Below, piece by piece: positions 1,449-7,362 of a stretch of 40,168 bases of DNA. Position numbers and translations under genes: made by a program. How positions within the stretch are numbered: the first letter of the stretch is position 1; every line of letters starts with the position of its first letter. Origin of the DNA: an uncultured Legionellales bacterium (lineage in GTDB: Bacteria; Pseudomonadota; Gammaproteobacteria; Eutrophobiales; Eutrophobiaceae); contig CAJWQR010000009.1 in assembly GCA_913045195.1 (NCBI GenBank), positions 1 to 40,168 of the forward strand, read 5' to 3'. The notes beneath the pieces were generated by a model, which was not told the origin of the DNA, searched no databases, and was given only the letters and a program-made list of their open reading frames with translations.

Positions 1449-4415
1449 ATGCGTCTATGCAATATAAAACTTTCTGGTTTTAAATCATTTGTAGACCCGA
1501 CCAATCTCATTGCCCCAGGTAGCCTCGTTGGAATCGTTGGTCCAAATGGTTGTGGAAAATCCAATATAATTGATGCCGTTACTTGGGTAATGGGTGAAAG
1601 TTCCGCAAAACATTTAAGAGGCGAGTTACTAACAGATGTTATTTTTAGTGGTTCTGGTACACGTCAGCCAGTTGGGCAAGCTTCTGTTGAATTAGTTTTT
1701 GATAATACTGAAAAAAAATTAGGTGGGCAGTACGCAAGTTACAATGAAATCTCAATAAAACGTCAAATTAATCGTGATGGTGTCTCGGTATACTATTTAA
1801 ATGGCACAAGATGTCGTAGAAAAGATATAACAGCGATATTTCTTGGCACTGGTCTGGGTCCACGCAGCTATGCAATTATTGAGCAAGGCATGATTTCAAG
1901 ACTGATTGAAGCTAAACCAGAAGAGTTAAGGGTTTTTATTGAAGAAGCTGCAGGCATTTCAAAATATCGTGAGCGACGCAGAGAAACAGAAAACAGAATA
2001 AAACATACAAAAGAAAATCTTGATCGACTTAATGATCTTCGTGAAGAACTTGAAAAACAACTAAACCATTTAAATCGTCAGGCAAAAGGAGCCGAACGAT
2101 ATAAAAATTTAAAAAGGGAACACCGCAAACTTAGCTCAGAATTACTTGCATTAAATTGGCGTGATTTAAACAAAGAGGTTAGAAGCCTACAGAAAGACGC
2201 AAACGAAAAAGAAAATGCAGTTGAATTAGTTGTCGCAAAAACACGATCAAAGGAAACGGAAATCGAAGGATTTCGTAATAACTTGAGTGAGGCAAATGAA
2301 CATTTTAGTAAAATGCAATCAAGTTTTTATCAAGTCTCTAGCGATATATCTCAACAAGAGCAAAATTTAAAGTTTGAACGTGAAAAAATTACTACCGCCG
2401 AAGTGGAGCTTGTTAAAGCTCGCGGGACTTATACAGATATAGAAGGCCAGCAAAAATCTGATCAAAAAGAGTATGAAATTCTAGATAAAGAATTAAGGCA
2501 ATTAGAGCCCGAGCTTAATGACTTTAGAAATGACAATAAAAAAGCACACGAACTTTTTGTAACTAAACAAAATGATGTAAAGAAATATCGCGATAAAACA
2601 AGAGAACTGTTGTCCGAGCTTGATATAGTGCGCCATGATTTTCAACGCCTTAATGGTCAGTTAGCTTCACTAGAAATATTGAGAGACTCGGTTGTTGAGG
2701 ATGATCAGGATTTATGTGAATGGCTAAAAGAGAATGATCTGGATAAGAAAATTCGCCTTTCTCAGTCAATTAAAATCGAATCTGAATGGAGATATGCGCT
2801 GGAAACAGTGTTAAATTCACGTCTGCACCATTTTTGTACTGACAATATTAGCGAATATCTGGATAAACTCGAAAATGCACCAGGAAAATTTGGGTTAATA
2901 AATTCAAGTAAAACTGAAAAGTTATCAAAAAAAGAAAATTTTCCACGTCTTTTAGACCAAATAAAAACAAATGTTCGCGCTCCTTTTTTCTTAGAAAATA
3001 TTTTTGTAGCTGATTCACTGAAAGATGCAGCAAAAATGTTAGCAAAGATCAATGACACACAAAGCATTGTAACTAAAAAAGGAATATGGTTAGGTAAAGA
3101 TTGGGTCGTTGTGAATAACATTACGGATGAAAATGAGAGTATATTATTTAGGGAAGAAGAAATAGGTCGTCTCAAAATAGAGATTGATGCAAGTGAAGGA
3201 AATATTAAATTGCTTGAATCCGCTCTAAGTGAAACTGAAGATAGCCTAGAAGAAAGTGAGTCAATTTTAAGCGATCATCAATCTTCGTTAACCGAGCAAC
3301 AAGATAATATTTCCTCGCTCAGAGAAATTCTTGCTTCAAAAAGTTCTCGCCACACTTCATACAAAGAAGTAATTGAAAGAAGTAATATTCAACTAAGTAA
3401 ATTGAAGGAGCAAGTATCGAATTTTGAACAGGGTTTATCGGATACAAAAACTCCAATAAAAAATATTCAAAGCAGAATAGCTAGCTTATTAAAAGATAAA
3501 CTTCGTGCTGAGAATAAACTTAAAGACGCACGTATCAATACTGAGTCATTCGAAATTAAAATACGAGAATCCGAGCAAAATCGACATAAATACGAACAAG
3601 AACTCGAAGGCTTACGTAATAATTTGGAAAAATCTCGTCTAGACGTTAATAGTTGTCAAGTTAAAATAGAAGCTGTAGAGGAACAGTTATTACAAGAAAA
3701 AGAAACCGCAAGCGACTTACTTACATCTATAGATGAAATTGCAAGTAAAGATGATTGGAAAGATCAATTAGAGACTATTGATCGAAAAATTCAACGCTTG
3801 GGACCAATAAATTTGGCTGCAATTGATGAATATAATCAGAATGCTGAACGAAAAACATACCTGGATAGTCAAAACAAAGATTTGACTGATGCTTTAACTA
3901 CACTTGAGAATGCTATTCGTAAGATTGACAAAGAGTCACGTACACGATTTAAAGAAACATTTGATGAGCTAAATAAAAATATAAAAGACATGTTTCCAAA
4001 GTTATTTGGTGGCGGACATGCTTACCTTCAGTTAACAGGCGATGAACTTTTAAATACAGGTGTTTCAATAATGGCGCAACCGCCTGGAAAGAAAAATACA
4101 AATATTCATCTGCTATCGGGCGGTGAAAAAGCTTTAACTGCAGTCGCCCTTGTATTTGCTATATTTAAATTAAATCCAGCGCCATTTTGCATATTAGATG
4201 AAGTTGATGCCCCTCTTGATGACTATAATGTCAGTCGTTTTTGCGAATTGGTTAAATCGATGTCTGATGATATCCAGTTTATTTTTATTACTCATAATAA
4301 AATCACAATGGAGATTGCGAATCAACTTCTTGGTGTAACAATGCATGAAGCAGGCGTATCACGTCTTGTATCTGTTGATGTGGATGAAGCTGTTGAAATG
4401 GCTGAAACAGCATGA
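1449..4415 (+). CDS. smc: Chromosome partition protein SMC (short-armed)
   Basis: SMC is an ATPase that dimerises and, with ScpA and ScpB, loops and organises the nucleoid. The N-terminus MRLCNIKLSGFKSFVDPT is typical. Walker A GPNGCGKS lies at 31-38, the ABC signature LLSGGEKA at about 888-895 and Walker B plus D-loop (CILDEVDAPLDD) at about 914-925. The hinge spans roughly 405-565. Between head and hinge lie charged coiled coils at about 175-400 and 570-765. The length is 988 residues, whereas bacterial SMC is usually 1150-1190, and the loss falls in both arms while heads and hinge look complete. smc-zipA-ligA order is as in Pseudomonas. No Shine-Dalgarno precedes the ATG. Confidence 0.97.
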   Translation: MRLCNIKLSGFKSFVDPTNLIAPGSLVGIVGPNGCGKSNIIDAVTWVMGESSAKHLRGELLTDVIFSGSGTRQPVGQASVELVFDNTEKKLGGQYASYNEISIKRQINRDGVSVYYLNGTRCRRKDITAIFLGTGLGPRSYAIIEQGMISRLIEAKPEELRVFIEEAAGISKYRERRRETENRIKHTKENLDRLNDLREELEKQLNHLNRQAKGAERYKNLKREHRKLSSELLALNWRDLNKEVRSLQKDANEKENAVELVVAKTRSKETEIEGFRNNLSEANEHFSKMQSSFYQVSSDISQQEQNLKFEREKITTAEVELVKARGTYTDIEGQQKSDQKEYEILDKELRQLEPELNDFRNDNKKAHELFVTKQNDVKKYRDKTRELLSELDIVRHDFQRLNGQLASLEILRDSVVEDDQDLCEWLKENDLDKKIRLSQSIKIESEWRYALETVLNSRLHHFCTDNISEYLDKLENAPGKFGLINSSKTEKLSKKENFPRLLDQIKTNVRAPFFLENIFVADSLKDAAKMLAKINDTQSIVTKKGIWLGKDWVVVNNITDENESILFREEEIGRLKIEIDASEGNIKLLESALSETEDSLEESESILSDHQSSLTEQQDNISSLREILASKSSRHTSYKEVIERSNIQLSKLKEQVSNFEQGLSDTKTPIKNIQSRIASLLKDKLRAENKLKDARINTESFEIKIRESEQNRHKYEQELEGLRNNLEKSRLDVNSCQVKIEAVEEQLLQEKETASDLLTSIDEIASKDDWKDQLETIDRKIQRLGPINLAAIDEYNQNAERKTYLDSQNKDLTDALTTLENAIRKIDKESRTRFKETFDELNKNIKDMFPKLFGGGHAYLQLTGDELLNTGVSIMAQPPGKKNTNIHLLSGGEKALTAVALVFAIFKLNPAPFCILDEVDAPLDDYNVSRFCELVKSMSDDIQFIFITHNKITMEIANQLLGVTMHEAGVSRLVSVDVDEAVEMAETA

Positions 4416-4507: not shown

Positions 4508-7362
<2,855 letters not shown>

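Follow-up and report, generated by a model that had tools for sequence, protein, structure and literature searches.

Burmann et al. (2017; PMC5344682) have described the lengths that the coiled-coil arms of Smc can take. They report that the arms of natural prokaryotic Smc proteins have modes at 238, 341 and 515 aa, and that engineered Bacillus subtilis arms are functional in three ranges separated by gaps, at 253-267, 330-373 and 407-435 aa. The same study gives a Fourier period of 91 aa for arm length, and 47 nm per 344 aa for the B. subtilis arm. The idea that arms function only at lengths spaced by one superhelical period is based on engineered B. subtilis Smc and on the overall distribution of natural lengths.

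We analyzed a stretch of 40,168 nucleotides (the window) from the draft genome of an uncultured Legionellales bacterium of the family Eutrophobiaceae. Positions 1449-4415 of its forward strand form one open frame of 988 codons for amino acids with no internal stops. The encoded protein passes the profile of the bacterial Smc equivalog (TIGR02168, 972.7 bits; cut-off 567.35), exceeds the cut-off of PF02463, and is the only full Smc match in the 1.39-Mb draft. The split heads carry Walker A at residue 31, LSGGE at residue 889 and Walker B at residue 914. The N-terminal ATPase head comprises residues 1-170 (1449-1958, with Walker A at 1539-1562) and is recognised by the head HMM and its motif; it shares 91-95% of its residues with the four closest long-armed relatives. 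It is followed by the N-terminal coiled-coil strand (residues 171-409, 1959-2675), the hinge dimerisation domain (residues 410-570, 2676-3158), the C-terminal coiled-coil strand (residues 571-779, 3159-3785) and the C-terminal coil neck with the remaining part of the ATPase head (residues 780-988, 3786-4412; LSGGE at 4113-4127, Walker B at 4188-4220), the last being assigned by the head HMM and motifs. The hinge scores 24.8 bits with PF06470 (cut-off 22.5) and 195 bits with an HMM of the family hinge. The open frame, TIGR02168, PF06470 and the motifs thus bear out the first-pass annotation, which had described a short SMC of 988 residues with intact heads and hinge.

The smc gene is preceded by the divergent genes queF and cysZ and followed on the same strand by zipA (4508-5347; PF04354 79.9 bits, TIGR02205 92.9 bits, below its cut-off) and ligA (5344-7362; NF005932 893 bits), and the order smc-zipA-ligA is common to the relatives. 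Assignment to Rad50/SbcC, which carries a zinc-hook CXXC instead of a hinge, was rejected, as an Smc hinge is present and the Rad50 models score far below cut-off. Given the strong match to TIGR02168, the protein is unlikely to be a MukB or MksB. It shares with the Smc of the B. subtilis-type Smc-ScpAB complex its heads, its hinge and the antiparallel layout of its arm, and its genus likewise has ScpA and ScpB genes in four members and has ParB; it differs in an arm that is about 90 residues per strand shorter than in its own family.

The family Smc is 1168-1173 aa long, against 988 in the window. Alignment with 30 other full-length Smc proteins of the class reveals two notable gaps: 89 residues are missing after residue 370 (junction 370/371, at 2558/2559) and 91 after residue 629 (junction 629/630, at 3335/3336). 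In a separate alignment, made with the nearest relatives, the junctions fall at 369/370 and 631/632, again with sizes of 89 and 91 in 10 of 10 near rows, two of which (JAURNY and G402) are one contig counted twice. Across 26 long-armed alignment rows the N-terminal block measures 89 aa in 25 and 88 aa in one (G031), and the C-terminal block 91 aa in 25 and 98 aa in one (G030); within the family itself, all 17 long Smc rows give 89 and 91. The strands from head to hinge, delimited by HMM anchors, have 239 and 209 residues, where those of the closest long-armed relatives have 328 and 300. Earlier estimates of about 225 and 195 residues were therefore right in kind and slightly low. That both arm strands had been shortened together was also correct, each by a single block of matched size; the alignment shows both strands to be short and the hinge not to be the source of the missing residues. 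One junction is 39 residues and the other 59 residues away from its hinge anchor, a difference that leaves room for inexact pairing of the two lost blocks. The N-terminal head is 91-95% identical and the C-terminal head 86-89% identical to those of the four nearest long relatives; the figure is 42-53% for the hinge and 36-62% for the strand segments that flank the gaps.

The heptad register is continuous across both junctions, as the first reading of the sequence had proposed. In the genus, the phase at period 3.5 in flanks of 42 residues is 1.27 versus 1.22 across one junction and 2.28 versus 2.22 across the other, a difference of 0.05 residue per arm strand in these windows. The difference ranges from -0.03 to 0.34 residue when three hydrophobicity scales are each applied with four window sizes, and the bootstrap 5-95% limits are no wider than about -0.46 to 0.66. 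The long relatives, 17 in number, show a phase jump of ~1.6-1.7 residues inside the N-terminal block, between about residues 415 and 435 (G008 numbering), and no jump across the C-terminal block. In an AF2 model of a long relative the helix is interrupted at 431-433, in a weak model with a mean pLDDT of 60.0. The mean for the window Smc is 58.3, and the heads are poorly modelled in both, presumably because few sequences were aligned (seven for the window Smc and six for the long relative), so only helix breaks were taken from the models, and these lend weak support. The N-terminal strand has lost 89 rather than 91 residues because its block held the phase break. Ninety-one residues, or 13 exact heptads, are gone from the unbroken strand and 89 from the broken one, and both strands end in register. 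The suggestion that paired heptad segments had been removed with register kept is accordingly supported, with the refinement that the N-terminal block, which included the phase break, is not a whole number of heptads. That unequal losses leave both strands in register is the strongest sign that they were accommodated or selected together.

The genus is represented by six genomes, and four of these encode a full-length short Smc of 988-990 aa. Another, G004, yields 786 residues of Smc and a separate C-terminal piece on a different contig, and in G005 (87% complete) no Smc match was found. The two gaps of the window protein recur in G001, G002 and G003 at 79-96% identity, and in the 786 residues of G004. 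The presence of identical gaps in three further genomes of the genus, and the absence of stops, speak against a frameshift-type assembly loss. The other genera of the family contribute 47 genomes: 41 with an uninterrupted frame of at least 1170 aa, six with a broken frame (G009, G012, G017, G403, G404 and G414) and none with an intermediate one. In one of these long-armed relatives the gene occupies two frames of 397 and 748 aa on one contig (G414:C4:42445-45950), which is either a broken frame or an assembly error. The survey of arm length in relatives thus finds all four full-length proteins of the genus short and the other genera of the family long or broken. The head tree unites the four short Smc proteins in a clade (100/99) within a group of eight that includes the long-armed G008, G011, G023 and JAURNY (100/98), and this group itself lies inside the long-armed family. 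The nesting of the short clade among long-armed relatives indicates that the arm loss is derived in the genus.

A second short-armed Smc with a hinge, of 1000 aa, was found in another gammaproteobacterial family (G027). It lacks 82 residues in the N-terminal strand and 87 in the C-terminal strand according to the alignment, or ~85 and 83 according to the anchors. The loss affects nearby places in each strand; however, the protein is only 31% identical to that of the window, and the exact borders differ. Its placement in the head tree is uncertain, with a long branch, and it is the sole genome of its family in the sample. The two losses are most probably independent, since the window genus is nested among long-armed Smc proteins.

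The whole Smc of B. subtilis is 1186 aa long. Scaling by total length with this value and the B. subtilis arm of 344 aa (PMC5344682) gives arms of ~245 aa for the window Smc, ~335 aa for its relatives and 251 aa for G027; these values are calibrated on total length and not on the B. subtilis hinge, because a phmmer search of the hinge region against the PDB returned nothing useful. An arm of ~245 aa is close to the natural mode of 238 aa and just below the engineered window of 253-267 aa. The arm of the genus has thus shifted by one period, from near the 341-aa mode to near the 238-aa mode. The published mode also means that the short Smc is of a known kind. Naturally short arms are thus not unprecedented, and the finding is a clean natural experiment of this known kind. 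The window Smc is close to the natural 238-aa mode in arm length, and it resembles the engineered Mini-Smc proteins (arms of 253-267 aa) in keeping the hinge with a short hinge-proximal stretch. Unlike these, it has an ancestral length known from sister genera, and its loss is asymmetric by 2 aa because the break of the N-terminal strand went too. What is new here is that the step can be followed from one sister genus to another, each strand preserving register and period; our searches of the open-access literature, which covered listings and the openings of abstracts, showed no report of such a transition in arm length between genera.

Comparison with G002 gives dN of 0.020 and dS of 0.223 over smc. 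The resulting dN/dS of ~0.09 indicates that the gene is under purifying selection. ScpA and ScpB are both encoded in four of the six genomes of the genus; they were not found in the draft that contains the window (90.9% complete) or in G003 (98%). ParB is encoded in five of the six, including the window's own. Pairs of parS-like sites spaced by exactly 624 bp from start to start occur in three sister genomes (G001:C10:80454-81093, G003:C11:12282-12921 and G004:C2:31553-32192) and in two long-armed relatives (G008:C29:82438-83077 and G023:C5:122755-123394). G005 has one parS-like site with one mismatch, and the window's own draft has only two sites with two mismatches, no more than the reversed-pattern control. 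The possibility that loss of the ParB-parS system freed arm length finds no support, in view of the ParB genes in the genus, the window's own genome included, and the parS-like pairs in three sisters.

We consider it likely that the window encodes the ordinary Smc-ScpAB motor of its genus, from which matched blocks of 89 and 91 residues, about one superhelical turn, were lost in an ancestor with the register kept. The protein would act as the motor of an Smc-ScpAB condensin that ParB loads at parS. Each strand of the antiparallel arm would have lost one block ~40-60 residues from the hinge in the common ancestor of the genus. As the loss corresponds to about one turn of the coiled-coil superhelix, the hinge is expected to face the heads at an unchanged rotational angle on an arm about a quarter shorter (335 to ~245 aa, or roughly 46 to 33 nm). 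The two deletions may have occurred together or in quick succession, with superhelical phase as the selected trait, and the complex is presumably a working one.

The same shortening might have come about by drift under genome streamlining, with the arm a spacer for which any length is fine and the ~90 aa per strand a coincidence. The genome is indeed small, at 1.39 Mb (other family genomes span 1.3-5.0 Mb and mostly exceed 2 Mb), and other short or hinge-less Smc proteins occur in genomes of 0.9-1.5 Mb. However, drift of this kind fits poorly with matched block sizes, a preserved register, the lack of intermediates and the similar loss of 82-87 aa per strand in G027. In addition, the RecN of the same genome, also a coiled-coil ATPase, has kept its full length (554 aa, covering 551 of 553 profile positions), which indicates that coiled coils have not shrunk wholesale, and some genomes of 1.0-1.4 Mb retain a full-length profile match, such as G337 (one match, E 0) and G137 (a frame of 1180 aa). 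Given a normal RecN and the full-length Smc of some other small genomes, we reject streamlining alone as the full explanation and regard coincidental drift as unlikely. Since other short-armed Smc proteins exist, as in G027, the gene might have been gained or patched by recombination from another lineage rather than shortened in place. Yet head identity to the four nearest family members is 86-95%, the strands flanking the gaps remain alignable at 36-62%, and the gene order is that of the family; on head identity and synteny we reject this origin, to which we assign very little probability. An assembly or binning artefact has the least chance of all: although the genomes of the genus are all drafts, the same gaps are repeated in four of them (79-96% identity), which practically rules out assembly error, and they lie inside long contigs in G001 and G003, in a gene without stops and under purifying selection. 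Matched, in-register shortening in place is thus the reading we prefer.

A search of 369 genomes of the class with TIGR02168, for which the best-scoring matches were listed, recovered a match in 362, of which 324 exceed the cut-off. We followed up 33 genomes: 30 from the survey, mostly with weaker or split matches, together with G001, G003 and other members of the genus and family sets. Among these, a hinge combined with short arms was found only in the window genus and G027; the counts of short forms are lower bounds, because the follow-up left about 25 survey genomes with intermediate scores aside. Eight proteins from five families (G165, G277 and G372; G199; G305; G055; G063 and G309) have good heads and no recognisable hinge, with a best hinge HMM score of 0.6 bits, in genomes of 0.9-1.3 Mb. 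Their segment between the heads has no glycine- and aromatic-rich stretch: the richest 100 aa contain 5-11 such residues, compared with 14-26 in 12 hinge-bearing Smc proteins. The reading as hinge-less is based more on length and composition than on the absence of an HMM match, as PF06470 likewise fails on G181 (1157 aa) and our own hinge HMM on G319 (1153 aa). Of the 25 genomes in the order of G165, 22 have an Smc match, and every full-length protein extracted from this order is devoid of a recognisable hinge; the 18 extracted proteins are 926-944 aa long and share a conserved tip of two helices, assigned by eye from the alignment. The hinge-less set (loci L070-L077, in the order of the eight genomes above, and L104-L118) spans 730-944 aa, and ligA adjoins smc at four of the five loci examined for it (L098, L100, L101 and L102; not L099). 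These forms come from outside the window and agree with the trend seen in it. In the one-contig, 1.0-Mb genome G196, smc is split over two frames (L081, G196:C1:453174-456645), and no Smc match was found in G303 (0.9 Mb) of the same small-genome genus; these observations hint at loss of Smc altogether. In the engineering study, B. subtilis Smc whose hinge had been exchanged for a Rad50 zinc hook supports normal growth (PMC5344682), so that replacement of the hinge is mechanically possible; the same searches of open-access listings and abstract openings showed no report of a natural Smc without a hinge.

Between sister genera of one family, both strands of the Smc arm have thus changed by a step of ~90 residues in register, and something similar has happened in a second family. 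The matched natural pairs, with arms of 245 and 335 aa on near-identical heads, lend themselves to tests of whether step size, loop-extrusion speed or the size of a passable obstacle depends on arm length. We tentatively propose, as an idea that is somewhat less than even in its chances, that condensin arms evolve in quanta, each amounting to one superhelical turn and affecting both strands at once, and that several lineages of Gammaproteobacteria with small genomes have replaced the hinge by a small helical tip. If this is true, both the full-size arm and the classical hinge would be dispensable in nature.
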